DNA from: a virus
Length of the DNA stretch: 64,000 nt
Reading direction: 5' to 3' (one strand)
Virus record (IMG/VR): IMGVR_UViG_3300042514_000542
Coordinates: 124,370-188,369 of that record
Part shown: positions 2,882 to 60,470 of the stretch, piece after piece
Numbering within the stretch: the first letter of the stretch is position 1
Layout of the letters: the number at the start of each line of letters is the position of its first letter
Notes under the pieces: model-generated
Told to the model about the DNA's origin: nothing
The model's input: only the letters and a program-made list of their open reading frames with translations
The model's database searches: none
Made by a program: the position numbers and the translations under genes

Positions 2882-3694
2882 ATGATACCCTTCAAACAGT
2901 TTTTCTTAGAGAATTTCACCAACTCGATAGATAATGAATACTTTGAAGCAATCCATAATGATGACTTATCCAAAGTTCAGAATATGGTAGATATAAAAGC
3001 CAAAAATATGGGGTATAATGTTAAAGCTTGGCATGGGACACCTATTGGAGAGTTCGACACCTTTAAATTGAGTAAATCCTTCGGATCTTTATATTTTTTT
3101 GCTAAGACCGAAGAATACGCAAAGTATTACGCCAATAGATTTAAAGGATCACCTAACCCGACAGTTATGGGAGTTTTTTTAAAAATCGAAAATCCGTTAA
3201 AGGTTGATAAATTTGAACCAGAGGGTGTTAAAACGGCATATGAGTTAAGGAAAAAAGGATACGATTCGGTAGAGACACCTAATGCATATATAGTATTTCT
3301 ACCAGATCAAATAAAATCTGCAAACCCAATCACCAAAAAGGGTGATAAAATCATCCCACTATCTAAAAGGTTTAATGTAGAATCTAATCTACTGTCTGAA
3401 TATCGTCACAATCTTGCTGATGGAACACCATCACAATCTATTCAAGCGCATAATGGTAAAGATCCCAACCGTCTAGATAAAAAGATTCTACACACTGTAG
3501 GTGATTATAAGAAAGAGAATCCTAAGATGAATATTCCGGGTAGTGTTCTAACACCAATGGAATTAGCCGATATGGGAATCACATACGAACATGGTAAAAT
3601 TTTTCAAAATGTTAAGAATAGTGGATTCGGAATTGAGATGACCTCTATTAATGGCAAACCAATGGGTCGAGTATTCAAGTCTCGTATTAAATAA
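2882..3694 (+). CDS. Predicted ADP-ribosyltransferase of the polyvalent-protein (ART-PolyVal) type, probably packaged
   Basis: 270 aa. After a capsid-targeting-like N-terminus (MIPFKQFFLE|NF), residues about 20-160 show the PolyVal ART layout. There is a helix ending MVDIKAKNMGY, then the strand KAWHGTP with the first catalytic-position His at about 51. FGSLYFFAKTEEYAKYYA supplies the Tyr, FLKIENPL follows, and FLPDQIKSANP supplies the third-position Gln, as expected for an H-Y-Q-type ART. Such enzymes transfer ADP-ribose from NAD+ to targets. The C-terminal about 100 aa are unassigned. The late promoter and targeting peptide suggest injection with the DNA, in analogy to T4 Alt, which is an unrelated ART clade. 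The family call comes from motif reading only. Confidence 0.75.
   Translation: MIPFKQFFLENFTNSIDNEYFEAIHNDDLSKVQNMVDIKAKNMGYNVKAWHGTPIGEFDTFKLSKSFGSLYFFAKTEEYAKYYANRFKGSPNPTVMGVFLKIENPLKVDKFEPEGVKTAYELRKKGYDSVETPNAYIVFLPDQIKSANPITKKGDKIIPLSKRFNVESNLLSEYRHNLADGTPSQSIQAHNGKDPNRLDKKILHTVGDYKKENPKMNIPGSVLTPMELADMGITYEHGKIFQNVKNSGFGIEMTSINGKPMGRVFKSRIK
3687..3693 (+). promoter_or_regulatory. Late-type promoter box TTAAATA before gp14
   Basis: TTAAATA ends 6 nt before ATG 3700 and overlaps the stop codon of the ADP-ribosyltransferase gene (3692-3694). Confidence 0.55.
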
Positions 3695-3699
3695 CTTAT

Positions 3700-4482
3700 A
3701 TGGCTTGCCCAACAACACCACTCTCCTGCTTAGAACCTGTTAATATATTCGCAGGTGTTTATAATCCTCGTTGCGGTGGATTTGCAGACCCCTCAAACTT
3801 TCAAGCTGAAAAGGCTGTATTTGCTAGTGGATATCAGGAATTGATTAATAACTATGGTGTGGATGTTAATTATTATGTGAATGGGTTTAATTTATCTGCA
3901 ATGAACCTATTGTATGGTGAACAGCCAACACAAGAATATGCTGGACCATTTGTTATTAAGTCTTATCTAGAATTGGAAGAAATGGTATCCTTATCACAGT
4001 TCGGTATGTCATCAGACGACGAATTGAAAGCTTATATAGCTATTAAAGATTTCACAAATTTATTCGCACTGTCTGCTAACGTTTTTTCCAATAATGGTCA
4101 AAGAGTCGAACCTAAATCTGATGATTTGATGGAAATTACAGCACTTGGTTGTGATAGACCCGGAGATAGAGGTTCTAAGATATTTCGAATAACTGAAGTA
4201 TTAGATCAAAGTGTTCAGGATGGAATTAATCCAATTATGGGTCATTATATCTGGAAAATCACAGCGAAACGCTATGAGACATCTATGGAAACCAATGCGC
4301 CACAAGAATCTGGCAATGATCAGGTGTATGATAATACATTCAGTGGTAAATTATCATCTACACTATTCCCAACACTAACTAGCGATGAGAAGGTGTATGA
4401 TTTCAATATTGATACCATAAGTCAAGAGACTGTGTATGATATGGATAATACATCAAATAACATCTACGGAGACTATTATTAA
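3700..4482 (+). CDS. 14: Neck protein, T4 gp14-like
   Basis: 260 aa, close to the 256 aa of T4 gp14, which helps close the packaged head and forms the collar to which the tail attaches. The order of landmarks matches T4 gp14: a YYV segment followed by LLYGE (T4 LIFGE), a QFGM/NFGM segment, then a G-x-x-x-EPK-x-x-DL segment followed by an E-I hydrophobic stretch, then a region like KITAKRYETS. The C-terminus is Asp/Asn-rich. It converges on the next minus-strand gene, and the two stop codons interleave on a TTAA at 4479-4482. Confidence 0.8.
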   Translation: MACPTTPLSCLEPVNIFAGVYNPRCGGFADPSNFQAEKAVFASGYQELINNYGVDVNYYVNGFNLSAMNLLYGEQPTQEYAGPFVIKSYLELEEMVSLSQFGMSSDDELKAYIAIKDFTNLFALSANVFSNNGQRVEPKSDDLMEITALGCDRPGDRGSKIFRITEVLDQSVQDGINPIMGHYIWKITAKRYETSMETNAPQESGNDQVYDNTFSGKLSSTLFPTLTSDEKVYDFNIDTISQETVYDMDNTSNNIYGDYY

Positions 4483-6518
4483 ATCATAGATAATGATTGA
4501 TATAAGGTATCCAAAATGATATGTTCAAACACCCCATTCGTATTGAATAGTGTGGAACTCGTTGAAGATGATAGAATTGATGTTTTTGTGTTATTGAAGT
4601 CAACAATACCACCAATTGGAGTATTGTCATATACATCGACATAATCAAAGAATAGATAGTATTTTTCAATATCGGAGAAATTAAAAGTTGTGGGTAGGAT
4701 CAAAGCCCAACCCCAATCAGACGAGTATGTTGAGAGAGGATATGTATGACTACCCAAAGCTGATACTGGTTGATATGTATTAAGTAATGAATATGTATTA
4801 CTAAATTTCTCAAGCGCAACAATCGGTCTATTGGAACTAACCGTATATGTCACTGTGTCGATCACATTCCCAATATTTACCCCAAATTTATCTTTAGTTG
4901 TTCTTCCACGAACGTCAAAATTCTCCCTAAATTTATTAAGTTCTCCTATGAGTTTTGATCTATCCATCGACATTAAACCCATTATACGTTTGATTTTATT
5001 TGGATATACATAATTCTCTTCTCCATAATTATTATAACCAATAGATTCCGCTAGAGAATTTAAAAAATCAATCTCAGAATAATCTAAGTCTTGAGTATTA
5101 TTAACCATATTTGCAATCTTCTCATACATTTGCACACCAATAGCATCGTGGTCAGAGTTTTCATCCCCAAATATATCCTTAAAGAACGTCTCAAACAGAA
5201 CAGTCTTATCCTGAAGAGTTTCTTGAAATCTTAGATCCATAAGAGTTTGAGTGGGATTAAAATCTTCATTAATCTTCCATAAATCGTAATAATTTTTATT
5301 ATATACATTGAATTCCGTAGAAATACCACTCAATGTGTAAGAGGATAATTGATCATTTACGAGTGTCGATGAAACTAGAAGTTGAATTGTTTCCAGTTTA
5401 TCGAAATTCGTATATGGGAATGTAATATAACCCCTAAATGCACCGCCATGGTTCTGTGCAGAGAGAGTATAATTAATAGATGATATACTATATTGAGTGG
5501 GATCTAGGATATTTCCTGATGATAAAATAGTAAAAACTATATCAGACTTTTCAACCGGATTAAAGTTTTTAATTGTGAAGTTATATTGATCCTTAACTTT
5601 AACAACAAATGGTATCCTAGTATTGAAGAATTTAATAGGATTAATATCAAAAGATGTTATATGTGTTCCGTCACCATCCAAACCATTGGATGTTACTGAA
5701 AGATATGCTGGAATGTTGTCAACAATATTTGCAGATAGGGAAATTTTAAGAAGATTCTGATAATTTGTCGTAGTTGCGTTTTTGATTGCTACATTAGACT
5801 TATCGAACCAAGTATCTATAACTACTAAATCGGATATAGAATCATCTTTATAGTATACATCCTTAGTTCCCGACATCCCAACAAAACATGAACCTGAATC
5901 ATTATCAGAACAATACTCGATTGTATTATTAACCACCCTAGCGTAAATAGAAACCTTTGATGGGACTATCTTATCAATTTCAACATATTGATATGCAGAA
6001 ATGGAATAATTGTATGTTTTTTCATAAAATGTATGAAAATTCTCAAGATGTTTAAATTTAAAATTCAAGTTCCAATAATTATCGCTATTATTTCCAATTG
6101 ATGAATAAAATATATTAGTGTGTTGTTGATATGGTGGATAGAAACAATCAATAGTCCACGGTCCATATATCTCACCACACTTAATTTCCGACCCGGTTAA
6201 AGTTATAGTGTGGGTAAATGTTATAAAGTCGTATATCGAAACACTTTTAACGACCGTTGATATCATTGCGTTGTTGTTACAGTCATAAACTATAAGAGAT
6301 ACATTGTATATACCCGGATACTCATAATATTTTGTGGCTGATATCGAAGTTGATGTCGTACCATCACCAAAATCCCAGACCACCCTACGATGTCTATCTA
6401 ATTCATTTGAATCTGATATAAATATCATTGGTGTTATGGGTAACGCAAATGATGAGAGCGCATCCACACCTTTATAATCAATAGAACTGAATCCTATATA
6501 TGTTGTTGTATTATTCAT
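4479..6518 (-). CDS. Baseplate/tail protein with an N-terminal PKD domain and a possible gp7 or tail-protein-I-like region
   Basis: 679 aa. About residues 25-95 form a PKD-type immunoglobulin-like domain (VVWDFGDGTTST, then YEYPGIYNVSLIVYD). The middle is beta-rich. About residues 420-560 are helical (FKDIFGDEN, MYEKIANMVNNTQDLD), resembling the tail-protein-I-like part of the wedge. The gene overlaps gp6 by 8 nt in the order gp25, gp6, this gene, where T4 has gp7 next to gp6. It carries no promoter box of its own and is probably translationally coupled to gp6. The gp7 identity is inferred from position. Confidence 0.65.
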   Translation of the reverse strand: MNNTTTYIGFSSIDYKGVDALSSFALPITPMIFISDSNELDRHRRVVWDFGDGTTSTSISATKYYEYPGIYNVSLIVYDCNNNAMISTVVKSVSIYDFITFTHTITLTGSEIKCGEIYGPWTIDCFYPPYQQHTNIFYSSIGNNSDNYWNLNFKFKHLENFHTFYEKTYNYSISAYQYVEIDKIVPSKVSIYARVVNNTIEYCSDNDSGSCFVGMSGTKDVYYKDDSISDLVVIDTWFDKSNVAIKNATTTNYQNLLKISLSANIVDNIPAYLSVTSNGLDGDGTHITSFDINPIKFFNTRIPFVVKVKDQYNFTIKNFNPVEKSDIVFTILSSGNILDPTQYSISSINYTLSAQNHGGAFRGYITFPYTNFDKLETIQLLVSSTLVNDQLSSYTLSGISTEFNVYNKNYYDLWKINEDFNPTQTLMDLRFQETLQDKTVLFETFFKDIFGDENSDHDAIGVQMYEKIANMVNNTQDLDYSEIDFLNSLAESIGYNNYGEENYVYPNKIKRIMGLMSMDRSKLIGELNKFRENFDVRGRTTKDKFGVNIGNVIDTVTYTVSSNRPIVALEKFSNTYSLLNTYQPVSALGSHTYPLSTYSSDWGWALILPTTFNFSDIEKYYLFFDYVDVYDNTPIGGIVDFNNTKTSILSSSTSSTLFNTNGVFEHIILDTLYQSLSMI

Positions 6519-8325: not shown

Positions 8326-8330
8326 TATAC

Positions 8331-8829: not shown

Positions 8830-10782
8830 TTATTTATAGTAAGAAAGAACTTCCATGGTATCAAGTTTAAAATCATCATCATCCCAGACTTTCTCGTTGA
8901 TAAGTTTTTCAAACATTTTGTCGAAGGATTCCTTTACCTTAACCTTTGTCCCATCTATATCAGTTTTTATAGCCGCATATAATCGCATAAATGAATTATA
9001 TCTATTACCTCCGCTAATATCCATCGGTTTAGGACTTGCAAGTACCAATATATGACGCATCTTAAATGATTCGGGTAAGCCTAATTCGTTGATAAGTTCT
9101 CTAATCAAATCTTTACTAAGTTTATTAATCCATACATCTCTAACCTTTAATCCGGTTAATGATGGAACTATCTCCAACAGTCTCGGTGACTTAAATTTCG
9201 CAGCGACACTATCAAATAACTCATCACCCTTCATACCCTTAAACGCTAACAAATATTCACTTAAAGTATCCCAAACATCACTCTTACTTTCGTCATATTC
9301 CTTACTCTTCAATTGAATGGGTTTAGTGGAAACCCCTTTAAATACATTAAGTATAATGGAGAATGGTAACTTCTCAAAATCTCTAACTGATGTTATATTA
9401 GCATTTCTGTCGAGTTGTAAACTCGTCACATATTCTCTATTATCATACGCTCTTTGGAATCTCTCAAGATATCCTATGAATGGGTTAATATTAGGATCTT
9501 CTGATGTTAAGCATAGAAGTTTATCAATTTTATCATTGTTACTTGACGGCATACCAGACCAACTAATTTGAGAAAAATCTTTGACTGTTTTTTCTTTAGG
9601 AACTTGTAGGTCTTTGATTATACGCCTAGCTGAAGAATTAACCTCGTCTATAAATTGAATTTGTGTTTCTTTATCTACTTTTTCGTTAATCGCATTGATT
9701 TGATTTATATGGTCTTCAACATTTTTCAAATCGTTTACAACATCTCGATATTTTTCTTCCATTACTTCAATCTCTTCAATCAAATCTAAGATTTTAGCCT
9801 TTTCTCGAACAATAGCCGAACTACTTAAATTAGCATTTGTGTGCTTATCTTCCAGATTAATCTTTCGTCTAACCGCAGATCTATATCGTTTAACTTCAGG
9901 TAATGCTTTTTCGTATTTTTTACTATTAATTTTCTTCGTTAGGGATGATATATTATCACTAATAGTGGATATATTACTATTCAAATTTTTTACTTTAGTT
10001 ACATCCTTCGTTAAAAGAATTTCATGATTCAAATTCTTCAAAAGTTTTGTTTTGGTTTCAATTTCACGATACATGTCATATATATCAAAGAAATGTGTGT
10101 TTTTACTTTTCTTATTGTTATCCTCTATCGCCTTGACTCTCGCAGATATTTCAGCATATAATTCCCTAAGTTGATTGAATTTAGTTGGTGAGGAATTATA
10201 CTTTTCATAATCGTTTACCCTGACACGATAATGTCGCAGTCGAGTTTGTAATTCTGTGACCTCTTCAGCCCTTTTAACCTTCATGAAATTGAGATTGTCT
10301 AATTTCTTCTCATAATCATACGCTTCTTTGACTTCTCTACCTCTAAAATCTTCAACGGTTCTAGATAGCCCATACGATGCCCTCTGTTTACCAAAACTTG
10401 TAGCAAGTTTGTTAAAATTTGTAATGAATGTTGGATCATTAGCCAATAACCCAAAGCTGGTTGTGAAACTTGCGTACATCATAGATCCAGCAGCAGCACC
10501 TATATCACCACGCTTTTTAATATCCAATTTACCATCCTTTGAAATATTATATTCGTATGGATTGAATTCCCATCTAGAAATCGGAACAACCGCTTCAGGG
10601 TTATCATTTCTACCAACTGAACTCGATCCAACCTTACCTACAAATTTACCATCTCCTGCATTCACCATCTGAGTTGGGTCTGACTCCATAGCATTATGGA
10701 TTCTAGCACCACCCATATTCTTAGGGGCTGATGGTCTAAATCCCGCTTCGGTGACTAAATTGAACAGTTTTTCGAACTTCAT
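8830..10782 (-). CDS. Large coiled-coil protein with capsid-targeting-like N-terminus
   Basis: 650 aa, no recognised family. The start MKFEKLFNLVTE|AG matches the (L/V)-x-E targeting/cleavage pattern seen in other putative internal proteins. About residues 60-160 are mixed. About residues 160-400 are strongly charged and heptad-like (many Lys, Glu, Leu and Ile; LLKNLNHEILLTKDVTKVKNLN), suggesting a long coiled coil. The C-terminal third is helical. It sits upstream of gp25 with its own late box. It could be a prohead-core scaffold or an ejected protein. Confidence 0.7.
   Translation of the reverse strand: MKFEKLFNLVTEAGFRPSAPKNMGGARIHNAMESDPTQMVNAGDGKFVGKVGSSSVGRNDNPEAVVPISRWEFNPYEYNISKDGKLDIKKRGDIGAAAGSMMYASFTTSFGLLANDPTFITNFNKLATSFGKQRASYGLSRTVEDFRGREVKEAYDYEKKLDNLNFMKVKRAEEVTELQTRLRHYRVRVNDYEKYNSSPTKFNQLRELYAEISARVKAIEDNNKKSKNTHFFDIYDMYREIETKTKLLKNLNHEILLTKDVTKVKNLNSNISTISDNISSLTKKINSKKYEKALPEVKRYRSAVRRKINLEDKHTNANLSSSAIVREKAKILDLIEEIEVMEEKYRDVVNDLKNVEDHINQINAINEKVDKETQIQFIDEVNSSARRIIKDLQVPKEKTVKDFSQISWSGMPSSNNDKIDKLLCLTSEDPNINPFIGYLERFQRAYDNREYVTSLQLDRNANITSVRDFEKLPFSIILNVFKGVSTKPIQLKSKEYDESKSDVWDTLSEYLLAFKGMKGDELFDSVAAKFKSPRLLEIVPSLTGLKVRDVWINKLSKDLIRELINELGLPESFKMRHILVLASPKPMDISGGNRYNSFMRLYAAIKTDIDGTKVKVKESFDKMFEKLINEKVWDDDDFKLDTMEVLSYYK
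8831..8838 (-). promoter_or_regulatory. Perfect T4-consensus late promoter TATAAATA for gp25
   Basis: The minus strand reads TATAAATA, ending 6 nt before the GTG start at 8824. The box spans the last codons and stop codon of the upstream 650-aa gene. Confidence 0.75.
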
Positions 10783-10816: not shown

Positions 10817-11374
10817 ATGGGAAAGAAATTTGACGCAATTTTTGAAGCAGTAGTATCAAGGTATCAGATTGGCGGGTATTTGCCGGGAGATATCGTGAAG
10901 TTTCGACCAAATTATAAATCAACACCAACATATAAAGCTATGCATTCTGAAATGCAGAGAGAGCTTGACGAATTGGTAAAAAGTGGACTTAATATCAAAG
11001 TTACTCAAGTCGGTTCAAAGACCTACAACCAATCTTCCGCAAATGATCACAAAACCGCCGATAATGTAGTTATTACAATTGCTGGGGATCATGGTGGTGG
11101 TCGCCATTTCGGATCTATTACAGTTTCCCCAGAAATGATTGATATTGTTGGTGCTGGAGATCCCACACCACCTGTTGCATCTCAATTCTATAGAGACGAT
11201 GAGAAGTATCTCAATGGTAAGACCGAAGAATGGAAGGCAGACCAACAAAACATTACTAGAGTCACTGATAAAGGAAATGGTAAGAACACTCCAACCGATC
11301 TTAAATTAGCGGGAGAAGGAACTCGCCTTAAGAGGGATAATGATAATATGGCGATGCTCTATGAAGGACTTTGA
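10817..11374 (+). CDS. Putative capsid-internal protein; C-terminus resembles the targeting motif
   Basis: 185 aa, unrecognised. The start MGKKFDAIFE|AVV fits the targeting/cleavage pattern. The body is polar, with a Gly/His cluster (DHGGGRHFG) near residue 95. The protein ends in NMAMLYEGL, which resembles the N-terminal IAQLYEEGL of the protein encoded at 12492. This last stretch overlaps the start of the next gene by 14 nt. ATG 10802 is a less likely start because it overlaps the late box. Confidence 0.65.
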   Translation: MGKKFDAIFEAVVSRYQIGGYLPGDIVKFRPNYKSTPTYKAMHSEMQRELDELVKSGLNIKVTQVGSKTYNQSSANDHKTADNVVITIAGDHGGGRHFGSITVSPEMIDIVGAGDPTPPVASQFYRDDEKYLNGKTEEWKADQQNITRVTDKGNGKNTPTDLKLAGEGTRLKRDNDNMAMLYEGL

Positions 11375-12488
11375 TAAAAATAATATAGCGAAACTATATT
11401 TAGAAAATGTCAATCCAAACATCTCAGAAGAGGATCAGAAGAAACTTGCTGATTTTTTCGTTCAATTAGTTGTAAAAATTGAACAAGGTGATCAGGAAGC
11501 TCAACAATTACTAAACCTACCACCTGATCAACTATTACAACATATTCAAAACTCTCAACAAGTCCAACAGGAAGCATTTGAAAATATTAGAAGTAGGATT
11601 GGTGGAGCATTTAAAGGAACTGGGCCAGCACAGCAAAGATATGGAATTCTGCTCAAGAATGTTCAAAAGAAGTTGTGGGAGTTGGGACAAGATATCCAAT
11701 CGACACAAGATCAGAATAATATAGCGTCATATCAAGATCTTATATCCCAAGTTCAAGCAGTTGAACCAACAATGGTTCCCACACCGGGATCTCTTCAACA
11801 ATTGGGATATAATATTGGGAAGGGTGTTGGGGCTGTAGGTAAGATAGCGGGAACAGTGGCAGGTGCAGGATTAATAGCCAGCACATTATCCACGGTGGGT
11901 CTTCCCATTGCTGCGGTTGGTGCTGTTGTTGGTGGTGGTATCAGCACACTCAAAAACCTATCAAACACCAACATGACTCCGGGTGAAAAGATTAAAAAAG
12001 CTTTGATAAGCGCAGGACTCGGTGCTGTTACGGCATATGCTCTTAGTGAATTGAGAGATGCTATGTCCGACACATCAATGGATGCGGCAAGAGCAGAAGC
12101 GGATAGAATAGACCTAAATGGGGAAACGCTTAGAAGTTCTGAAGAATTAATAGATCAAGGCGTTGAAGGTGTCCCAGAAACGGGAGTTGCTCAAGGCGTT
12201 GAAGGTGTCCCAGAAACGGGAGTTGCTCAAAACGCATCCGGTGGGATAGATTCTACCGCAAAAGTACGTATTGCGGCTCCAGATCTTCCGAATTCCGAAC
12301 GAATTGCATTCACTAGAGGTAAAATACAAGCATTGCGACAATTGACCGCACATTTAGGGACTGATACAATACGGGGTGTCACATATGATCAAGTTATTGG
12401 TGCAGATGGTAATATGTATGTTACCGCTAAATGGTCACAGGCAATGTCGGATACTGCTGCTAAAATTTCTAGACAGATGGGAAATTAA
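11361..12488 (+). CDS. Putative capsid-internal protein with a hydrophobic glycine-rich segment and a tandem repeat
   Basis: 375 aa, unrecognised. The N-terminus (FDKNNIAKLYLE|NV) shares the IAxLYxE motif with two or three other proteins. Gln-rich helices follow. About residues 155-210 are a Gly/Ala/Val-rich hydrophobic stretch (GVGAVGKIAGTVAGAGL) that could insert into a membrane, as expected of an ejected pore-forming protein. Near residue 270 a 12-residue unit (GVEGVPETGVAQ) is perfectly duplicated. It overlaps the preceding gene by 14 nt and has no box of its own. Confidence 0.65.
   Translation: MKDFDKNNIAKLYLENVNPNISEEDQKKLADFFVQLVVKIEQGDQEAQQLLNLPPDQLLQHIQNSQQVQQEAFENIRSRIGGAFKGTGPAQQRYGILLKNVQKKLWELGQDIQSTQDQNNIASYQDLISQVQAVEPTMVPTPGSLQQLGYNIGKGVGAVGKIAGTVAGAGLIASTLSTVGLPIAAVGAVVGGGISTLKNLSNTNMTPGEKIKKALISAGLGAVTAYALSELRDAMSDTSMDAARAEADRIDLNGETLRSSEELIDQGVEGVPETGVAQGVEGVPETGVAQNASGGIDSTAKVRIAAPDLPNSERIAFTRGKIQALRQLTAHLGTDTIRGVTYDQVIGADGNMYVTAKWSQAMSDTAAKISRQMGN
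12156..12227 (+). repeat. Perfect tandem duplication of 36 bp
   Basis: Units 12156-12191 and 12192-12227 are identical and in frame, encoding two copies of a 12-residue Gly/Val/Pro-rich unit. The absence of any difference suggests recent duplication. Confidence 0.95.
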
Positions 12489-12491
12489 ACA

Positions 12492-12794
12492 ATGAATAAA
12501 CAAGATCAAATAAATATAGCGCAACTCTACGAAGAAGGGTTATGGGATAGGATGAAAGCATCGGCTTCCGGTGTATCTGCTGGAGTCAAAGGGTTCTTGG
12601 GTGGTAATGGTTATGCTAAATCGGCACAATCGGCAAAAAAATCCAGCTTAATGAGGGGTAAACTTTCATCAATATTGCAAGATATTCAAAAATTTGAAAC
12701 TGACATGGGAAGATATAAAAATGATCCGTCTGCATCGACATTCTCACAAAAAACATCTCAAATTAAACAAATAATTAACAATTTCAATAAATAA
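12492..12794 (+). CDS. Small putative capsid-internal protein
   Basis: 100 aa, basic and helical. The N-terminus (QDQINIAQLYEE|GLWDRM) closely resembles those encoded at 11361, 30062 and 56579. The EGLWD stretch after the predicted cleavage site recalls EGFWD in the protein encoded at 59970. The remainder is Ser/Lys/Ala-rich with a C-terminal helix. It starts 3 nt after the previous stop codon, so it is probably translated from the same late message. Function unknown. Confidence 0.65.
   Translation: MNKQDQINIAQLYEEGLWDRMKASASGVSAGVKGFLGGNGYAKSAQSAKKSSLMRGKLSSILQDIQKFETDMGRYKNDPSASTFSQKTSQIKQIINNFNK
12786..12793 (+). promoter_or_regulatory. Late-type promoter box AATAAATA
   Basis: The box ends 5 nt before ATG 12799 and includes part of the stop codon of the preceding gene (12792-12794). 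Confidence 0.55.
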
Positions 12795-12798: not shown

Positions 12799-13452
12799 AT
12801 GTCAGCATACAATCGCAGCGATATGAAACTTCTTGAAGAAGCCTATAACCTTAGACTCCTTAAAGAACAAGCCCCACACATGACAATCAATGATGTAAAG
12901 AACCGTTTACATCTGATGAATGAATCAGAACTGGAATATATTAACACTGTTAACGAAAGAATTCTTAATGAATTCTGGGGTGGACTTAAAAGTGTCGGTC
13001 AAGGAATTAAAAATGCTGGTGGTGCGGCTTTACAAGCTGGTAAGAATGCTGGGAATGCTGCTCTACAGGCTGGAAAGGCTGCTGCTGGGAATGTAGCCAA
13101 TGCTGCTTCTGCGGCTGGACAGGGCGCACTTGCCGCTGGCAAACAAGTCGTAGATAATGCTAAGGACATGTATAGTGCTGGTAATGTCGCATCACAATCC
13201 GATGAAGCAATTACTAAGGCTCAGACATCAATGCAACAACTTATCGACCTTGTAACACAAGCACAAGCAAATGGTCTTATTAAGGCTCAAGGTGATGTTA
13301 CAGACATGACATTAGCTGATATCATCGATGAACTTACAACTGCACAACAATCAGCACAAACATTCAAGCAAGGGGCGCAAACTAAAGGATTTACTGGTGG
13401 TGCTGGACAAGCAGCTAAAGCTGCATATCAAGGAGCGAGACAACCAATTTAA
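12799..13452 (+). CDS. Ala/Gly-rich putative capsid-internal protein
   Basis: 217 aa, unrecognised. The N-terminus contains LLEE|AY, LLKE|QA and ILNE|FWGGL, each a possible (L/I)-x-E cleavage site; the last would leave a mature protein starting FWGGL. About residues 65-125 are an imperfect repeat of Ala-Gly-Lys-Asn units (GNAALQAGK and variants), probably a long amphipathic helix. The C-terminal half is Gln/Ala-rich. Its stop codon interleaves with the convergent gp44 stop at 13449-13452. Confidence 0.65.
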   Translation: MSAYNRSDMKLLEEAYNLRLLKEQAPHMTINDVKNRLHLMNESELEYINTVNERILNEFWGGLKSVGQGIKNAGGAALQAGKNAGNAALQAGKAAAGNVANAASAAGQGALAAGKQVVDNAKDMYSAGNVASQSDEAITKAQTSMQQLIDLVTQAQANGLIKAQGDVTDMTLADIIDELTTAQQSAQTFKQGAQTKGFTGGAGQAAKAAYQGARQPI

Positions 13453-29544: not shown

Positions 29545-29985
29545 ATGAGTAAATTCGCAAAAAACTTCCTTGAAGTATTAAAAGAAGCAGATCTTGATAG
29601 AGATCTTGAGAGACAAGCTATGGAAGGTTCTCTTGATGACGGTATCGATCCTTCTGAATTCGATACCGATATGGAGATGTCCCCTGAAGAAGCACAAGCC
29701 ACTGATGAAGTTGCCGATGCTATGTCGAAACGTAACCAACAAATCATTTCAGAACTCCAAGGTTGGATTGATCAAGTCGAAGAGTTCCTTAGCTTTCTTA
29801 ACAGTGAAGATCCTAATAGTGTCCAATCACGTTTGGCTGCTGCTGAACCAGATACCGTTATGGATAAGATGAAACAGTCTCAACAAACTAAAATTAGTCG
29901 TGTTGCATCTGACTTAGCGAGTTTACATCAAAACTTCCTTGGATTCATGGCTCAAACTTCCAACGCAAGATTTAAATATGTGTGA
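29545..29985 (+). CDS. Putative prohead-core or capsid-internal protein
   Basis: 146 aa. The start MSKFAKNFLEVLKE|AD gives a classic gp21-type L-x-E|A site. The middle is acidic (DGIDPSEFDTDMEMSPEEA) and the C-terminal half is helical (IISELQGWIDQVEEFLSFLN). Size, acidity and N-terminus suit a prohead-core protein, but no direct T4 equivalent is evident. It has its own late box and is isolated between early minus-strand genes. Confidence 0.65.
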   Translation: MSKFAKNFLEVLKEADLDRDLERQAMEGSLDDGIDPSEFDTDMEMSPEEAQATDEVADAMSKRNQQIISELQGWIDQVEEFLSFLNSEDPNSVQSRLAAAEPDTVMDKMKQSQQTKISRVASDLASLHQNFLGFMAQTSNARFKYV

Positions 29986-30061: not shown

Positions 30062-30133
30062 ATGAAAAAGAAAGATCAAGAAGCAATTACCAAGTTATAT
30101 ACAGAGGGAGATCATTCCAATGACTATAGATGA
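30062..30133 (+). pseudogene. Targeting-peptide leader ending in an in-frame TGA
   Basis: An ATG at 30062 encodes 23 residues beginning MKKKDQEAITKLYTE|GD, a clear member of the IAxLYxE targeting-peptide family. It stops at TGA 30131-30133. The very next codon is ATG (30134), in the same frame, continuing into the 87-aa protein. This looks like one gene broken by a nonsense codon or read through it. A sequencing error is also possible. Confidence 0.6.
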
Positions 30134-40523: not shown

Positions 40524-40530
40524 ATAAATA
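40524..40530 (+). promoter_or_regulatory. Late-type promoter box ATAAATA
   Basis: ATAAATA ends 5 nt before ATG 40536. Confidence 0.65.
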
Positions 40531-40535: not shown

Positions 40536-42527
40536 ATGACTAAATATGGATTTGACTATTTTACCAAACGTGCAGAACTCTTAACAGAGATGGCTAGAAC
40601 GACTACCCGCTATAATGGGTTGAATGTTGGAGGTGAATATGATTATGATTTCGTTGCTCTTAGAGCGAAAGTGTTGAATGCTATTAAAAGTGGAATGTCC
40701 CCGCATAATGCGTCAGATCCGTTGGTAGATGAAGACGGGAAAACTGCAACAGGTGTGGTTGATGGATCTCAATATAGATCATTGATATACATGTTTTCTA
40801 AAGTGTATAATACGATATTAGATAATGAAGAGTTTGATATCGATGCCGATGTTGAATTTGAAAATGCTAAGGGTTTACTATCATCGGACATATCCAAACT
40901 GCCAGTTAGCGAAGATGTTCACGCGATTATATATGAAATACAAAATCAAATCAAGGAAAATGGTATTAAATTAGATAAACCTACATTAGATAATGTAACT
41001 AGAGAAATTATATCAAAATACGTTCCAAATATTGCGGAAATTTTAAAGGCTCATGATAGTGGAGATAAGAATTCGGGAATAGAAGAGCTTCCTGTAATTC
41101 CCGTTGATATTTATCGAGATCCCTCAAGGTTCTTATCATCTTTATTTGAAATCCGTAATTCTAAAACCACTAGTGGTAGAAAAGTAGTCGATGACCCCAA
41201 TAAAAAACCCGGAAAACAACCCACTCTTATAGAAGAATATACTAAAAAAATGCAATCTTTGGCAAGGAAAATATATAAACAATATGTCGAAAACCCCAAA
41301 AAAGCACCAAGCGGTCCAGAAATTTTTGAAGCTGCCACTATCGTCCTCATAAAAAAGCATCCGGAATTAATTTTCGATAAATCATTTGTAAATTCCGTAT
41401 TAGATCCTGTAAATATTGCCACTTTTATCAATAAAGGGGAGTCAGGTGAGGGGATTGTCGTACTGGATCATGAAACATCAAAACTGGCAGCAAGAAATAT
41501 TGGTGAAATGTATGGTATAAACGCTAAATCTTATAATGAGTTGATGTCGAAGTCTAGAAAGGTCAGAACACAATTAAGTTATCTATCTCGCGCAGATGCA
41601 AAGAGAAAAGTGAAAACTTCCCCGACTGTAGAAAAAAAATCAAGTCCCGATAAATTAGATAATTTACATACCCAAAACGTAGATAACATTCTTACTATAT
41701 TACTAGCTTTAAAAGAAGACAAGATCGACTTGGATGAACAGATTGAAATTAAGAGTGAATTATTTAAGGACCCTTACGATGTGATCCTAACAATACATGA
41801 CGAAACAGACGTTCCAATAAAGTGGATAACATCAATGATGAAGCTCAAGGGTACACAAGTTATCGACAGATTATACGATGTTTTTCTTACATTAGAAAAT
41901 GTAGGAATTGATATTGACACTTTTAATGAAAATATGGAGGAGTTAAAATCAAAAAAACCAGAATTGGTGGGGTTTATCGATATTTTCACTAAAGACGTTT
42001 CACTAAAAATAAAAGCAGATACTCCAAAGTCGAATGTCCTTAGTTTTCCGGGATTCGCCCAAGAACATATTGAAAAAGTTCTCGATACTCCAGAAAAGAA
42101 AAACATCTTCTCCACTTATTATAATTATATCTATGTTAAAGATTTGAAGCGAGCAGCCGCAGAAGTTCAGCAAAAATTAGACGTTGATGCAGGTAAAGAA
42201 GTTGTGGGAAAACCAGTTACCCTATATGCTATGCGTCAAGCTGAAAAGAATTTCCAAAAGAGTAGTGGTAAGTTTGGTAATAGGGGTGAAAATATGGAAC
42301 GTGAGGCAGAACTAGCTAAACGTGAGAAGGACAAAGAATTTAAAAAGGATCAAAATAAACTAAGCAAGGGGATACAAGATATAATCGGTAAACCTCTACG
42401 CAACGAATCATATGTTATGAATTATATGACAGAACAATTCCAAAAAGATAGGTTCAAAACCAAAGGTGAATTTAAAGATCGTGGATACAAAAAACCAACC
42501 AATTACTGGCAAGGTAGAAACCTATGA
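40536..42527 (+). CDS. Large putative capsid-internal or virion protein
   Basis: 663 aa, no recognised family. The N-terminus (FDYFTKRAELLTE|MART) ends in an L-T-E site and the EMAR motif shared with the next protein. The body is helical and highly charged, with Lys-rich stretches (NPKKAPSGPEIFEAATIVLI) and a basic C-terminus (KEFKKDQNKLSKGIQD). It overlaps the next gene by 4 nt. A late, DNA-associated virion protein is the likely role. Confidence 0.7.
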   Translation: MTKYGFDYFTKRAELLTEMARTTTRYNGLNVGGEYDYDFVALRAKVLNAIKSGMSPHNASDPLVDEDGKTATGVVDGSQYRSLIYMFSKVYNTILDNEEFDIDADVEFENAKGLLSSDISKLPVSEDVHAIIYEIQNQIKENGIKLDKPTLDNVTREIISKYVPNIAEILKAHDSGDKNSGIEELPVIPVDIYRDPSRFLSSLFEIRNSKTTSGRKVVDDPNKKPGKQPTLIEEYTKKMQSLARKIYKQYVENPKKAPSGPEIFEAATIVLIKKHPELIFDKSFVNSVLDPVNIATFINKGESGEGIVVLDHETSKLAARNIGEMYGINAKSYNELMSKSRKVRTQLSYLSRADAKRKVKTSPTVEKKSSPDKLDNLHTQNVDNILTILLALKEDKIDLDEQIEIKSELFKDPYDVILTIHDETDVPIKWITSMMKLKGTQVIDRLYDVFLTLENVGIDIDTFNENMEELKSKKPELVGFIDIFTKDVSLKIKADTPKSNVLSFPGFAQEHIEKVLDTPEKKNIFSTYYNYIYVKDLKRAAAEVQQKLDVDAGKEVVGKPVTLYAMRQAEKNFQKSSGKFGNRGENMEREAELAKREKDKEFKKDQNKLSKGIQDIIGKPLRNESYVMNYMTEQFQKDRFKTKGEFKDRGYKKPTNYWQGRNL

Positions 42528-43291
42528 ACGAATTCATAAATTTATATAAATCTCTAATGTTGGAGATGGCTAGACCCTCATCACTTGGGCCAAAAATGTT
42601 GGGTGATGAATTATTCAAAAAATTCAACACATTATTAGCTGAAGTTAATGATAGGTTCAAGTATGGCGTTCACAAATATCCAGAACTAGTAGACTTTAAA
42701 GGGGAAGAAGCATATGGTCTACACGATAAAGTTTTACAAGAGAGGAAACTTAGATATTTCTTTTTTTGTTTAAACAAAAACTATAAAAATTTAGATTATA
42801 AAGAAGAAATTACCATGGATAATGAGAGAGCTAGATCCATAGGCGAAATGACACAATACTGTAAACAAAAAGGAATACATTATAGTCTCGGATCAATTAG
42901 AATGACCACTTCTGCTATTTTTGAAAAAATAAAAGACGATGAGAAGTGGTTTTTGTCAAAAAACTTCCAAAAGATATTATTAGATCCTAAACTTATGGCT
43001 AGTTATATGAATGCTTCGAGGGAGACATTTAACCAATCATCTATAAATGCCGCAGCAAAACGTGAGAAAGAGGGTGGAATGGGTATACGAGATCTAGATA
43101 AATTCAGGGCAGAATACCGTGATGTAGATAAAGCATTAAGTTACAAGGAGAGGGGTACGGGTCTTAAACAAAAAGCCGCAGAAAAAAGAGAAAAGATTGA
43201 AACTCTTCGTAAGAAAAAAGAGATGGCTAATGCGAAGCGTAAACAGACATGGGCTAATAAGAAACTAAACAAAAAAACCCAAGGAATTTAA
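42524..43291 (+). CDS. Basic putative capsid-internal protein
   Basis: 255 aa. The N-terminus (MNEFINLYKSLMLE|MARP) has the same L-x-EMAR form as the previous protein. The middle is mixed, with NFQKILLDPKLMASYMNASR. The C-terminal 60 residues are strongly basic and helical (KRKQTWANKKLNKK), suited to binding packaged DNA. It is coupled to the previous gene by ATGA and ends at a hairpin terminator shared with the convergent UvsX gene. Confidence 0.68.
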   Translation: MNEFINLYKSLMLEMARPSSLGPKMLGDELFKKFNTLLAEVNDRFKYGVHKYPELVDFKGEEAYGLHDKVLQERKLRYFFFCLNKNYKNLDYKEEITMDNERARSIGEMTQYCKQKGIHYSLGSIRMTTSAIFEKIKDDEKWFLSKNFQKILLDPKLMASYMNASRETFNQSSINAAAKREKEGGMGIRDLDKFRAEYRDVDKALSYKERGTGLKQKAAEKREKIETLRKKKEMANAKRKQTWANKKLNKKTQGI

Positions 43292-48374: not shown

Positions 48375-48620
48375 TCAACCAACCTGATCCTGAATATAGC
48401 TTAAATGTGCTGTGTCTCCATTAACTCTACAGTTTAATTTCATACTACCTCTAATTCCTCGATCAACTTCGGCTACATTTTCACCAATAATTAATTTATA
48501 CCCACGGTGAGTCGCTATATGTTCCCCATTCGGTAATACCCCATTAACTATTTTAACTTCCCACTCACCACTATACATTTCAAGTAATAGGTTTTGAATA
48601 TTCGCAACATCCTTTTTCAT
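48375..48620 (-). CDS. Small late protein with capsid-targeting-like N-terminus
   Basis: 81 aa. MKKDVANIQNLLLE|MYSGEW has the (L)-x-E-Met form seen in the proteins encoded at 40536 and 42524. The rest is beta-rich (WEVKIVNGVLPNGEHIATHR, then a strand pair with Gly-rich turns). It has its own late box 5 nt upstream although it lies upstream of gp43 in the replication block, so it is probably a late virion gene inserted among early genes. Function unknown. Confidence 0.6.
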   Translation of the reverse strand: MKKDVANIQNLLLEMYSGEWEVKIVNGVLPNGEHIATHRGYKLIIGENVAEVDRGIRGSMKLNCRVNGDTAHLSYIQDQVG

Positions 48621-48652: not shown

Positions 48653-48826
48653 TTATTTAATTGTCTGATTTGGTAAAAGCTCGATAATTGCTTTAAAGTC
48701 TTCTTTAAAATTTGGCAAATGTGCATATCCCTTTAATTCTCTATTATCGAATTCTTCATCCATTATACGTTGACCAATCTCAGCACGATCATCCATCTCT
48801 TTTAACAATTTCTCTATTTCAGTCAT
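48653..48826 (-). CDS. Very small late protein
   Basis: 57 aa from ATG 48826 (MTEIEKLLKE|MDDRAEIGQ). Helical, acidic, with a possible L-K-E cleavage site at residue 10. The late box 5 nt upstream supports this start over an in-frame ATG at 48850, which lies inside the preceding gene. Function unknown; it could be a small internal virion protein. Confidence 0.5.
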   Translation of the reverse strand: MTEIEKLLKEMDDRAEIGQRIMDEEFDNRELKGYAHLPNFKEDFKAIIELLPNQTIK

Positions 48827-53974: not shown

Positions 53975-54708
53975 AATTCTTTATTCTTTCTTGGTCGTTT
54001 ACTTCCACTATTTCTTAACCTGCTCGCCTCACCTATTCTTTTTCTAGTTTCTTCTGAATGGGTGTATGTAGAATTTTTTCTTGATTCTCTCATCTTTTCC
54101 TTTGTCTCTTCTGATAGAGGGATTCCCACCTTAAGTTGTCTCAATTTTTCTTTAGTTTCTTCACTCGTCTTATACCCCAATCTTACATTTCTCATTTTTT
54201 CCTTGGTTTCATCCGATACTTTCCTCCCCAAATTAGACTTTCTATTTTTTTCATTAGATTCTTTTGAATGGTGTTTACCTATTCTCGAAAGCCTTATTTT
54301 TTCTCTAGTTTCTTCGGATTTTGGTTTCCTCATTTTTTCTTTAGATTCTTCTGAATGATAATATCCGGTTCTATCTCGGGAATATTTGCATATATTATAA
54401 CCTATATCATTATTTGTAGAATCTAGTAGTGATATATAATGAGATTCTAGTTCTAATAGATCCGTATTATCTTTAAATTTATCAAAATTTTCATAGATCT
54501 CTAATATCTCAATAGTGAATGAATTCCATCCATATTTTTTAATAACGTGTTGTAAATAACACTTGCCTTGCTTTTTATTTTCACAATATTTATGAGATAT
54601 AAATCTATTTTTCAGGTTTATCGATTTTCCCACATATATCTTATTTGTCACACCACATGTTAATTTATATACTCCAGCAACATTTTTATATTCAGAATAA
54701 TTATTCAT
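53971..54708 (-). CDS. GIY-YIG homing endonuclease with NUMOD3-type repeats
   Basis: 245 aa. The motif is a GVY-YVG variant: GVYKLTCGVTNKIYVGKS (11-28). At least six SEE/SDE-T-K-E-K-(M/I)-R NUMOD3-type repeats follow, and the end is basic. It sits exactly between uvsW and gp55, overlapping gp55's ATG by 4 nt. A CTAAATA box 5 nt upstream of ATG 54708 overlaps uvsW's stop codon. Clearly paralogous to the endonucleases at 34643 and 36300. Confidence 0.93.
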   Translation of the reverse strand: MNNYSEYKNVAGVYKLTCGVTNKIYVGKSINLKNRFISHKYCENKKQGKCYLQHVIKKYGWNSFTIEILEIYENFDKFKDNTDLLELESHYISLLDSTNNDIGYNICKYSRDRTGYYHSEESKEKMRKPKSEETREKIRLSRIGKHHSKESNEKNRKSNLGRKVSDETKEKMRNVRLGYKTSEETKEKLRQLKVGIPLSEETKEKMRESRKNSTYTHSEETRKRIGEASRLRNSGSKRPRKNKEL

Positions 54709-56550: not shown

Positions 56551-56565
56551 CTCGTATCTTGATAG

Positions 56566-56573
56566 TATAAATA
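56566..56573 (+). promoter_or_regulatory. Perfect T4-consensus late promoter TATAAATA
   Basis: TATAAATA ends 5 nt before ATG 56579 on the plus strand. Confidence 0.75.
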
Positions 56574-56578
56574 CATAT

Positions 56579-58004: not shown

Positions 58005-58007
58005 ATA
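58001..58007 (+). promoter_or_regulatory. Late-type promoter box TTAAATA, head of a virion gene run
   Basis: The box ends 6 nt before ATG 58014 and includes the stop codon of the previous gene. Confidence 0.6.
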
Positions 58008-58013
58008 ATCAAT

Positions 58014-58454
58014 ATGAGTAAATTCCTTAATCTTATAGAACAGTTCGATCCACAAAACACTGAAGATCCCAAGTGGAAACTGATTGATTATCTTAAATCC
58101 AAAGGTGTTCATGTAGAACTTGTAAGGGATACCGATATGGTTCATATCCATACAGATGGTGATGTCATTGCGGTTAATGTTTCCATTCCAGAAGAAGAGG
58201 CTGAAAGTATTAATGCTGGAACTGGAACCTATGAAGTAGATCAAGAGGTTGAAAATCTTGGAAATAAGGCTAATAGCGGATTAAGAGGATTGGCAGCAAA
58301 AGCTTGGGGAACTCCAGCACAAAAAGCTAAAACAGCGGTGAAAGAGCGTCAACAAGTTGCTGGACAAGCTGTAGATGCATATAAAAAAGGAACCGAAAGA
58401 ATCCAAAAAGGATTACAAGCGGTTAAAAAATCAGCAATCGGCAGAACATACTAA
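58014..58454 (+). CDS. Small putative capsid-internal protein
   Basis: 146 aa. The start MSKFLNLIE|QF has an L-I-E site at residue 9. A small alpha/beta domain follows (DYLKSKGVHVELVRDTDMVH). The C-terminal half is Ala/Lys-rich and helical, with a basic end (KGTERIQKGLQAVKKSAIG). It begins a plus-strand set of six closely packed genes to 60470. Function unknown. Confidence 0.65.
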   Translation: MSKFLNLIEQFDPQNTEDPKWKLIDYLKSKGVHVELVRDTDMVHIHTDGDVIAVNVSIPEEEAESINAGTGTYEVDQEVENLGNKANSGLRGLAAKAWGTPAQKAKTAVKERQQVAGQAVDAYKKGTERIQKGLQAVKKSAIGRTY

Positions 58455-58828
58455 TGAAATCTAAAACTTTACAACTAATCAATCGTTATCACCGTCTTAT
58501 TAGAGAGCAAGGTGAAGACCCATCTATGGAACAAGACCCTAATGCTATGGAACAACCACAAGATGCTGTTGATCCAAATGCTGGAGGTGCTGGAGAAGAG
58601 GAATTACCATTAACGTCTCAAGGTGAAGATAAGTATATTGCTGATCTTATTGATGCAGCATTATTCGAGCCATCAGCAGAAGACGCTAGAACACTTTTAA
58701 ATCTCCAAAACGTAATGCAAATGAAGCGTTACAAAAATGCTAGAGAAGAAGTTCTACCATTAGTATTATCTCTTATTAGTTCTGAAACCCAAGGTGGGGA
58801 TCTTAAAAAGAGCTTGAATTCAATTTAA
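58454..58828 (+). CDS. Acidic putative prohead-core or internal protein
   Basis: 124 aa. The N-terminus (TLQLINRYHRLIRE|QGED) fits the targeting pattern. The middle is acidic and Pro/Asn-rich (MEQDPNAMEQPQDAVDPNAG), and the last 60 residues are helical (DKYIADLIDAALFEPSAED). Starts within the previous stop (1-nt overlap, TAATG). Acidity recalls prohead-core proteins. Confidence 0.6.
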   Translation: MKSKTLQLINRYHRLIREQGEDPSMEQDPNAMEQPQDAVDPNAGGAGEEELPLTSQGEDKYIADLIDAALFEPSAEDARTLLNLQNVMQMKRYKNAREEVLPLVLSLISSETQGGDLKKSLNSI

Positions 58829-58841
58829 CCTAAACATTTTA

Positions 58842-58848
58842 ATAAATA
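58842..58848 (+). promoter_or_regulatory. Late-type promoter box ATAAATA
   Basis: ATAAATA ends 5 nt before ATG 58854. Confidence 0.65.
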
Positions 58849-58853
58849 ATACT

Positions 58854-59252
58854 ATGAAGTTCCGCGATAGAGAAAATGCTTTAATTTGGGAGAGATATGT
58901 TGATCCATACACCCAATTAGAAATGGATGGAGATGAATCATTGAATGATCCTACAGTTGAAGACCCTATGATGGGTGAAGAGGATCTTGAGGTTCTGGCA
59001 TTTGAACCAGAAATGGATATTGAAACCGAAGAACATGAAGCGTGTAATGAAGTTATATATTCTGATATCAAAAAACTTGCCGAATATTCAAAAAGAATTC
59101 TTGGAATTTGTCAAGAAAAAGAAATGGAACCTTGGATGCAAGCAAAACTTATAAAAGCTTCTGATTATGTTTCTGAAGTATGGCATAGACTTGATTCGGA
59201 AGCAGATTTTGCAAATACTGGATTTGAACAGTCCGACAACATTAGTTTCTAA
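58854..59252 (+). CDS. Small virion-type protein (EPWMQAKLIKASDYV motif)
   Basis: 132 aa. The middle is very acidic (DGDESLNDPTVEDPMMGEED). The C-terminal segment DIKKLAEYSKRILGICQEKE, then EPWMQAKLIKASDYVSEVWH, resembles a conserved small protein of marine T4-like phages as I remember it. Its role there is unknown or structural. It has its own late box. The N-terminus does not clearly match the targeting pattern. Confidence 0.65.
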   Translation: MKFRDRENALIWERYVDPYTQLEMDGDESLNDPTVEDPMMGEEDLEVLAFEPEMDIETEEHEACNEVIYSDIKKLAEYSKRILGICQEKEMEPWMQAKLIKASDYVSEVWHRLDSEADFANTGFEQSDNISF

Positions 59253-59253
59253 T

Positions 59254-59529
59254 ATGAGTAAGTTTTTGACGAAGAGCGAGGAATATCAATTGATGTGGGA
59301 AAAAACCCAAATCAAAGAGTCCAATGTTCAACCAATAAATGTATTATTGGAATCAAAACATATGTTAGAAAACATAGTAAAAACTATTAATATCAACTCT
59401 GGTTCGATGAAACCTATAAAAGAGAATAAAAATCAACCATCGGTTGATGATGTGGTGAAAGTATATGATACATTACTCAAAATAACCAAACAGATGGGTG
59501 TTGATACAACACTTCAACCAGTGATTTAA
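59254..59529 (+). CDS. Small putative internal protein
   Basis: 91 aa from ATG 59254 (MSKFLTKSEEYQLMWEKT). Possible cleavage sites are QIKE|SN and VLLE|SK. Helical and polar throughout, ending PSVDDVVKVYDTLLKITKQ. It starts 1 nt after the previous stop (TAATATG junction). The longer frame from 59167 lies inside the preceding gene and is rejected. Function unknown. Confidence 0.6.
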   Translation: MSKFLTKSEEYQLMWEKTQIKESNVQPINVLLESKHMLENIVKTININSGSMKPIKENKNQPSVDDVVKVYDTLLKITKQMGVDTTLQPVI

Positions 59530-59532
59530 TGA

Positions 59533-59973
59533 ATGAGAAGTTTCAAGCAATATTTTGTAGAGAAAACCGTTTTAGGTTTGGAAGAAACTATCTACGTTGA
59601 TGGTGTTGGACAACTACGTGCGAAATTAGACACGGGAAATGGAGCGTTTAATGTTCTACATGGACAGAAAATTCAAATAGATGGTGATATGGTTAGGTTC
59701 ACCACTGAAAATGGTGTGGTATTAGAGAAACCTATTTCAGATCATATAACAATTAACTTGGGTGCTGGTAATACCGAAGATCGTCCAGTGGTATTATTAA
59801 ATATAAAAATGGGTGATAAGATTTTCAAGGATATCCCATTCTCAATCGGAAACAGATCACAAAATACCCATAAAGTTTTAATTGGTAAGAGCTTCATACA
59901 AAATGAATTAGATGCATTAATTGATGTGGGTCTTGTAGATGTAGCTAAAAGAAATATAGAAGTTAATATATGA
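59533..59973 (+). CDS. Retropepsin-like aspartic protease domain protein with capsid-targeting-like N-terminus
   Basis: 146 aa. After MRSFKQYFVE|KT, the protein shows a single-domain retropepsin-like pattern: GQLRAKLDTGNGAFNVLHG (catalytic-type Asp33-Thr34-Gly35), then RPVVLLNIKMGDKIFKDIPF (60-100 region), then HKVLIGKSFIQNELDALIDV. This order resembles the retropepsin-like proteins that accompany RimK-type genes. Such folds act as homodimers. It starts 3 nt after the previous stop and overlaps the next gene by 4 nt, within the putative internal-protein run. Activity is inferred from motif only. Confidence 0.7.
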   Translation: MRSFKQYFVEKTVLGLEETIYVDGVGQLRAKLDTGNGAFNVLHGQKIQIDGDMVRFTTENGVVLEKPISDHITINLGAGNTEDRPVVLLNIKMGDKIFKDIPFSIGNRSQNTHKVLIGKSFIQNELDALIDVGLVDVAKRNIEVNI

Positions 59974-60470
59974 AAAAGTTTACTCAAAAAGAATTGTTGA
60001 ATGAGGGGTTTTGGGACAGTTTTCCAGCTAGAGTTCTTAAGGGTGCTGCTGTTGTTGGTAAATTTGCGACTAAGACACTCGCACCTGAAATATACAACCC
60101 TATCTCCAGTGTGGTGTCGGGAATTAAAGATCTAAATCAACAATTGATTAAAGCTACCACACCAGAGGCTTCATATATAATAAATAAATTGGCGAATCAA
60201 GGATATTCAATAGTTGGTGATATTGGTAAGATTAAAATGAGACAAGGGGATGATAAACAATTGTATAAAGTATCAGTTGTAATAAGACAAAATTTTATCA
60301 GTTCTGGAGAACCCAATCCTCAAAAAATATTCTTAGTGGACAAAGATGGTAATATAGTAAGAGATTTAAGTGCTAAAAACGCCGCAAAGGGTGGGAAAAA
60401 ACCACAAAAACAAAGAGTTTCACCAGTTGTAACAAATCCACAAACCAAAAAAGTTCCACCGAAACCTTGA
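59970..60470 (+). CDS. Putative capsid-internal protein (LNE|GFWD type)
   Basis: 166 aa. The N-terminus MKKFTQKELLNE|GFWDSF has a clear L-N-E|G site. GFWDSFPARVLKGAAVVG parallels GLWDRM (12492 gene) and FWGGLKSV (12799 gene). The middle is a small alpha/beta domain (IINKLANQGYSIVGDIGKIK). The C-terminal 40 residues are Lys/Pro/Gln-rich and basic. It is coupled to the protease-like gene by a 4-nt overlap. Last gene of the run. Confidence 0.65.
   Translation: MKKFTQKELLNEGFWDSFPARVLKGAAVVGKFATKTLAPEIYNPISSVVSGIKDLNQQLIKATTPEASYIINKLANQGYSIVGDIGKIKMRQGDDKQLYKVSVVIRQNFISSGEPNPQKIFLVDKDGNIVRDLSAKNAAKGGKKPQKQRVSPVVTNPQTKKVPPKP

Follow-up and report, generated by a model that had tools for sequence, protein, structure and literature searches.

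A set of late proteins encoded in a 64-kb stretch of a virus genome begin with a short N-terminal leader ending in a hydrophobic-x-Glu site, and we consider it most likely that these shared leaders are capsid-targeting propeptides of the kind found in phage T4. The stretch, called the window below, comprises bases 124370-188369 of the 206,590-base IMG/VR virus record IMGVR_UViG_3300042514_000542, whose source, an uncultured and deeply diverged phage, is T4-like judging by its genes. The sequences suggest an unusually varied protein cargo carried in the phage head, and an enlarged variant of the T4 capsid-targeting system is, at the level of sequence, well supported. An earlier note on the window had counted about twenty such proteins, which proved somewhat high, as we found ~17 intact candidates (Table 1), roughly 12 of them with homologue support, and ~12 more outside the window. 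Of the 12 N-termini it quoted, 11 read as quoted at their given starts; the remaining example, AITKLYTE/G at 30062 (the slash marks the predicted cut), is not an intact tagged protein, since MKKKDQEAITKLYTEGDHSNDYR is followed there by an in-frame TGA.

Results

Late-box genes carry a Glu-specific N-terminal site

The hexamer TAAATA, the core of the T4 late box TATAAATA, lies within 14 bases of the start codon in 74 of the 305 open reading frames (ORFs) called genome-wide, where 3 would be expected, and exactly 5 or 6 bases before the start in 61 of those 74. This spacing of 5-6 bases recurs in all nine clade genomes, whereas the box stands mostly 13-34 bases upstream in T4 and in cyanophage S-CAM1; Pelagibacter phage HTVC008M has 12 genes with a late box at such close spacing. 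With the box so near to the ATG, transcripts would start at or beside the start codon, giving leaderless late mRNAs. The late box thus picks out, blind to protein sequence, late genes whose starts are reliable. Shine-Dalgarno start calling was abandoned, the signal being weak in this phage, and first-ATG and late-box starts were used instead; all gene starts are computed, and the relatives are metagenomic.

Using 152 mutually unrelated late-gene families from the nine genomes, we found the pattern PhiPhixE (Phi, hydrophobic) ending at residue 8-20 in 45 families, compared with 120 of 1485 interior windows taken from the same proteins (8.1%, p=6.6e-13). Other residues in the place of Glu (P1) were not enriched comparably (Asp 0.8x, Gln 0.8x, Lys 1.3x), and since Glu is favoured and Asp is not, a generic amphipathic helix is a poor explanation. 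In the phage's own genome 32% of late-box genes have the pattern, as against 9% for interior windows and 7% for genes that are not late; the respective figures for five other genomes are 23-38%, 7.5-11% and 8-14%. The excess over background amounts to ~14 proteins among the phage's late-box genes and to between 16 (two-hydrophobic form) and 23 (one-hydrophobic form) in its late operons. We put the number of tagged proteins at 14-16 for late-box genes and at up to ~25 genome-wide. The shared N-terminal pattern described in the earlier note is therefore real, as its Glu-specific, late-gene-restricted excess emerges from tests independent of the proteins listed there.

Further tests on N-termini pointed the same way. 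An unbiased search for gapped triplets, noisy from spurious ORFs when first run on all ORFs and hence repeated on late genes only, put LLxE in first place (9 versus 0.7 expected), and FxxxFE, FxxYF and IxxLxxE were also among the highest-ranked. A fully conserved N-terminal PhiPhixE was present in 14 of 132 families (mean identity up to 60%) as against 2.7% of interior windows. Aromatic residues at positions 4 and 7 occur in 9 proteins (2.5 expected), and together with a hydrophobic residue 8 and Glu at 9-11 in 6 (0.22 expected, p=1e-7); this fuller pattern is absent from SPO1, S-CAM1 and HTVC008M, in which the T4-derived pattern is not enriched either. In T4 itself, taken as positive control, the late-box screen returned four matches, three of which are gp22, gp24 and Alt, all listed as gp21-processed (PMC9026906), and leaders of the T4 internal protein type were recovered by the class A patterns.

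Leader sites agree with the gp23 junction

The phage encodes a gp21-type S77 prohead protease (record 4909-5364; Pfam PF03420, E=3e-30), gp23 (PF07068, 2.5e-85) and gp20 (PF07230, 5.5e-91), and gp22 was assigned to record 5969-6853 from its position between gp21 and gp23. It is distant from all cultured phages, with identities to the best-ranked phage records of 26-28% for the portal and 32-33% for the capsid protein. As IMG/VR relatives, 80 loci were kept from the gp23 search, and most of eight such contigs were used for comparison. The record looks linear, but its two ends overlap by ~400 bases at roughly 95% identity (L004:17816-18221 and L005:1-406), so this is probably a complete, circularly permuted genome.

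When the gp23 junction was placed by aligning the T4-like mature start, the 80 homologues gave WC-[I29 F20 L13 Y12 M5 V1]-x-E(75)/[S37 A35 N5], and the tag sites match this clade consensus, [ILFYMV]-x-E/[AS]. P3 is mostly Leu or Ile in T4, whereas Phe and Tyr are common there in the gp23 and the tags of this clade (FFLE, YFVE, LYTE). Such sites are also held by gp21 (LIAE/N) and gp22 (LFSE/D, LLNE/E). The earlier note had proposed T4-type propeptides cut by gp21, a proposal against which a different consensus at the phage's own gp23 site would speak; as the gp23 junction and the tags share one consensus and the S77 protease is encoded, the core of the proposal passes this check. In the T4 capsid-targeting sequence, residues 4 and 7 serve targeting and residues 8 and 10 processing, corresponding to P7, P4, P3 and P1 (reviewed in PMC9026906). 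In this register most of the tags here are hydrophobic, exceptions being, for example, P7 in the 59970 and 58854 proteins.

Conservation of the sites in the window proteins

The sites are kept across diverged homologues (proteins are named by a window coordinate from Table 1). In the 10817 protein, E10 is invariant in 25 of 25 sequences and I8 is kept in 96%; its AlphaFold2 model (pLDDT, the predicted local distance difference test score, 63) has a disordered leader and gave no significant fold match. This family also keeps a second LYE site close to the C-terminal end, with Tyr182 invariant, which recalls how gp21 of T4 cuts Alt and gp21 itself at the C-terminus. The site of the 59533 protein reads M..F..[FY]F.EK in all 15 sequences, with F4, F8 and E10 invariant, and that of the 29545 protein F..[FR]F..[VIL]L.E/[AD] in 5/5 homologues. 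Proteins of the 58014-60470 block behave likewise: FL.[LIMV].E/[QE] is kept in 6 genomes at 58014, [LI]-x-E/[QED] in 8 contigs at 58454, [LV][IM]WE/[SR][YF] in 6 genomes at 58854, and [KR][ED]LL.E/G[FL]W in 6 genomes at 59970, where mean identity is 29%. Both sites of the 12799 protein are kept in 3 genomes, as is I..LYEE/G[FL]WDR of the 12492 protein, to which LEELLEE/GFLDR on another family is similar. Two homologues each support the 11361 protein (IFQLYVE/S and IGAILQE/M) and the 40536 protein (FF......[ILF].E/[MG]), and three sister genomes the 8830 protein (IVTE/A, ILSE/A and LALE/A).

The ADP-ribosyltransferase (ART) at 2882 is a 270-residue protein with a single Pfam domain, ART-PolyVal being the only Pfam family reported at E<0.05, and its TAAATA box ends 5 nt before the ATG. 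Leaders akin to its own (MKLFKEFF, MKSFKAFFYE) stand on relatives' proteins. A peptide-pattern search of IMG/VR returned no relatives of the 40536 protein or of this ART, and a PHROGs search gave no informative matches for the window's tagged proteins. As the earlier note had stated, the mature parts are mutually unrelated, with no BLAST pair at E<1e-3 within the tagged set.

Unrelated tagged proteins look alike also after the cut, where E/G[FL]W[DS]xxK or E/[SG]WG recurs (12492 and 59970 in the window; L151:12864-13625; L005:18761), and the new N-terminus may have a role of its own. At 30062-30397 the leader-like ORF is broken by the TGA and its frame then runs on as an 87-residue ORF; the 30062 sequence is possibly a 23-codon stub or a decayed tagged gene. 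Three further ORFs with late boxes (window 34643-35401, 36300-37184 and 53971-54708) have in common a GIY-YIG-like start, AGIYKL.C....KIYIGKS.N.

Table 1. Tagged proteins, candidates and related features in the window (aa, amino acids; slash, predicted cut)
Feature	Leader or site	Coordinates	Strand	Support or context
243-aa gene, N-terminal codons only in window	MITFKTFFENNQE/L	1..64 (record 123702-124433)	-	late box
Large terminase gp17		74..1897	-	PF03237 E=6.9e-13, PF17289 E=4.7e-9; T4-like context
ADP-ribosyltransferase (ART-PolyVal)	MIPFKQFFLE/N at 2882-2911	2882..3694	+	PF18760 E=1.5e-12, aa 49-153
650-aa protein	MKFEKLFNLVTE/A at 10747-10782	8830..10782	-	late box; baseplate gene region
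185-aa protein	MGKKFDAIFE/A at 10817-10846	10817..11374	+	late box
375-aa protein	MKDFDKNNIAKLYLE/N at 11361-11405	11361..12488	+	late operon
100-aa protein	MNKQDQINIAQLYEE/GLWDR at 12492-12536	12492..12794	+	
217-aa protein	LLEE/A (residue 14), LLKE/Q (residue 23)	12799..13452	+	late box
146-aa acidic (20%) protein	MSKFAKNFLEVLKE/A at 29545-29586	29545..29985	+	TAAATA 8 nt before ATG
Stub, 23 codons then TGA	AITKLYTE/G	30062..30133	+	
663-aa protein	MTKYGFDYFTKRAELLTE/M at 40536-40589	40536..42527	+	late box
255-aa protein	candidate, MNEFINLYKSLMLE/MARP	42524..43291	+	sequence only; operon of 40536
81-aa protein	candidate, MKKDVANIQNLLLE/M	48375..48620	-	late box
57-aa protein	candidate, MTEIEKLLKE/M	48653..48826	-	late box
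146-aa protein	MSKFLNLIE/Q	58014..58454	+	late box
124-aa acidic protein	MKSKTLQLINRYHRLIRE/Q	58454..58828	+	late operon
132-aa very acidic (27%) protein	MKFRDRENALIWE/R	58854..59252	+	late box
91-aa protein	candidate, MSKFLTKSEEYQLMWE/K	59254..59529	+	sequence only
ATP-dependent zinc protease/aspartyl-protease-like domain	MRSFKQYFVE/K at 59533-59562	59533..59973	+	PF05618 E=2.9e-11
166-aa basic protein	MKKFTQKELLNE/GFWD	59970..60470	+	
TAAATA boxes, examples		2871-2876, 40525-40530, 58843-58848		5-6 bases before ATG

Leaders are modular and precede varied cargo

In the 59533 protein the PF05618 match starts at residue 13, and the solved homologue 9g58 aligns only from its residue 4 onwards, which stands opposite query residue 10; the leader is thus an added piece. 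The same holds for a PolyA/CCA-type nucleotidyltransferase with PolyA_pol and HD domains encoded elsewhere in the genome (leader MITFSKFFKE/S), since its matches in other phages begin at residue 51-53. All 14 sequences of this enzyme have F4, and in most of them a Glu comes soon after an aromatic stretch, while the spacing between leader and domain varies, one relative having a 120-residue insert there. Leaders are also exchanged: the mature start FSDLGKLSP stands behind MQSFYKFFWE or MRPFYDFYLE in two phages and behind MKLTQKDQSEIANLYSEILVE (..SEIANLYSEILVE) in a third, and swaps of like kind were seen in other families.

The cargo outside the window includes a HEYAH protein (leader MMPFKLFYE/R) with weak M90 similarity, of which a relative at 36% identity retains the HExxH and the E.FA downstream of it, and a HEWAH protein (MITFKHYIIRE/G); among relatives, two Nudix proteins have the leaders MMRFSNFF and MITFKKYF. 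Two large tagged proteins (L005:8468-10486 and L010:5686-7464) contain the cysteine motifs DRSWTSCMDL and GGAMGHCGNTA, respectively, the latter kept in a relative.

Discussion

Following the T4 model, the tagged proteins would be made late in infection from TAAATA promoters, a step for which the late boxes give support in silico. The amphipathic leader, through its hydrophobic residues at P7 and P4, would then dock on the gp22 scaffold core of the prohead, and the S77 protease gp21 would cut after the Glu of the hydrophobic-x-Glu site, the kind of site at which it would also mature gp23 and gp22. The cut would free the mature protein inside the head, where core-type tagged proteins would be digested; folded cargo of the enzyme type would stay with the DNA and be injected.

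As in IPI-III and Alt of T4 (Straboviridae), the leader is short and N-terminal, with hydrophobic residues at 4, 7 and 8 and Glu at the cut, and it comes with an S77 protease, late expression and mutually unrelated mature parts; T4 ipI starts MKTFKEF and one tagged protein here MKSFKEFY. Unlike T4, this phage has more tagged proteins, P3 is often Phe or Tyr, HExxH, PolyA-type and, in relatives, Nudix enzymes appear as cargo, and a second leader form exists, I..L[YL].E, after which G[FL]W often comes and which is not bound to residues 4-10. None of the mature tagged proteins was matched to a T4 internal protein. An ART domain behind a leader makes the 2882 protein resemble Alt, to which no sequence homology was found, ART-PolyVal being its only Pfam family at the above threshold, and it is not classed as an Alt orthologue. 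In T4 the uncharacterised 54-residue gp61.1 (NC_000866 18966-19130) starts MKTFKEFIKE/D, and by its sequence it may be an unrecognised internal protein.

Other systems differ more. In phiKZ-like giant phages (phiKZ, 201phi2-1, SPN3US) a gp21-like protease processes many head proteins, likewise after Glu (PMC9026906, PMC5694885), but the sites of the inner-body proteins are S/A-x-E or A-x-E and their propeptides mostly long, whereas here the sites are hydrophobic-x-E and the propeptides 9-20 residues. Packaged ARTs and Nudix proteins have been predicted for myoviruses from gene context (PMC9503650, PMC5512222). The 2882 protein belongs to the ART-PolyVal family of polyvalent-protein ARTs (PF18760); polyvalent proteins join several effector domains in one chain, whereas the ART and Nudix proteins here stand alone behind an explicit head-targeting leader and are neither multidomain fusions nor MuF proteins.

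Components of the T4 prohead core are digested and not injected, and most tagged proteins could likewise be core parts, scaffold or gp67/gp68-like, that are cut up and lost, with few or none injected. This is a serious contender, though on balance unlikely. It agrees with the presence of such sites in gp21 and gp22, the latter having twice the expected number of PhixE sites, with the small size and acidity of the 29545, 58454 and 58854 proteins, and with the block at 58014-60470, whose gene order and gene content are preserved as in a structural module. Intact enzyme domains are, however, unexpected in a scaffold (the ART, the PF05618 protease-like domain, PolyA_pol with HD, HExxH, and Nudix in relatives), and in T4 the enzyme Alt, which has a tag and is both packaged and injected, sets the precedent (PMC9026906, PMC9503650). 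A part of the tagged set probably belongs to the core and is not injected, the acidic 29545 and 58854 proteins probably included. Alternatively, the leader may dock on the scaffold or another late machine and remain uncleaved in most proteins, for which P7 and P4 alone would suffice; in T4, Asp at position 10 keeps targeting and blocks processing (PMC9026906). The enrichment of Glu but not Asp at P1, together with the match of P3 to the gp23 junction, renders this improbable.

Several results weigh against T4-type propeptides. The looser pattern Phi..PhiPhi.E in the first 24 residues was found in 13 of 76 window ORFs (4.1 expected); genome-wide, its excess is weak (23 of 301 versus 16-18 expected), and several of the window matches, among them the clamp loader, are clearly due to chance. 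In single proteins the motif is weak, and chance accounts for many of the genome-wide matches. Three T4 leaders used as BLOSUM templates did not separate the phage's own genome from background, and some leader patterns were sharpened after examples were seen. The 8830 leader, although conserved, is encoded among clustered baseplate genes and may be of another kind. The mature tagged proteins are not depleted of PhixE sites (observed/expected 0.99-1.27, the same as untagged late proteins), so it must be folding that lets them survive in the prohead. The small genome-wide excess and the failed template scoring would suit a pattern arising by chance or from a general property of N-terminal helices, an explanation we regard as very improbable: the signal is specific for Glu over Asp, Gln and Lys, absent from non-late genes and from SPO1, and the site is kept across diverged homologues. 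Chance is thereby refuted for the whole set; it may still apply to the single cases 42524 and 48620, both quoted in the earlier note, and 48826 and 59254, both added here, which are without a homologue for testing and count as candidates only.

Beyond capsid targeting of the individual proteins, a wider reading, tentative and somewhat short of an even bet, is that the clade uses one removable tag, whose two forms (Mx[STP]FxxF[FY]xE and I..L[LY].E/G[FL]W) are interchangeable, and loads with it 15-25 different proteins as a modular arsenal: ARTs, Nudix proteins, metallopeptidases, an aspartyl-protease-like protein and a PolyA/CCA-type enzyme. Cargo would be gained by addition or swap of the tag, which would then list the injected effectors from sequence alone.

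It was by their leader that T4-type internal proteins were recognised, and IPI, IPII and IPIII of T4 all block host restriction systems (PMC12373910). If the address code works at 26-33% portal and capsid identity, it can serve to find the injected first-response proteins of metagenomic phages without recognisable relatives. The cargo described here, with its ART, HExxH proteins, protease-like domain, nucleotidyltransferase with HD domain and, in relatives, Nudix proteins, supplies concrete candidates for early takeover of the host or for counter-defence.

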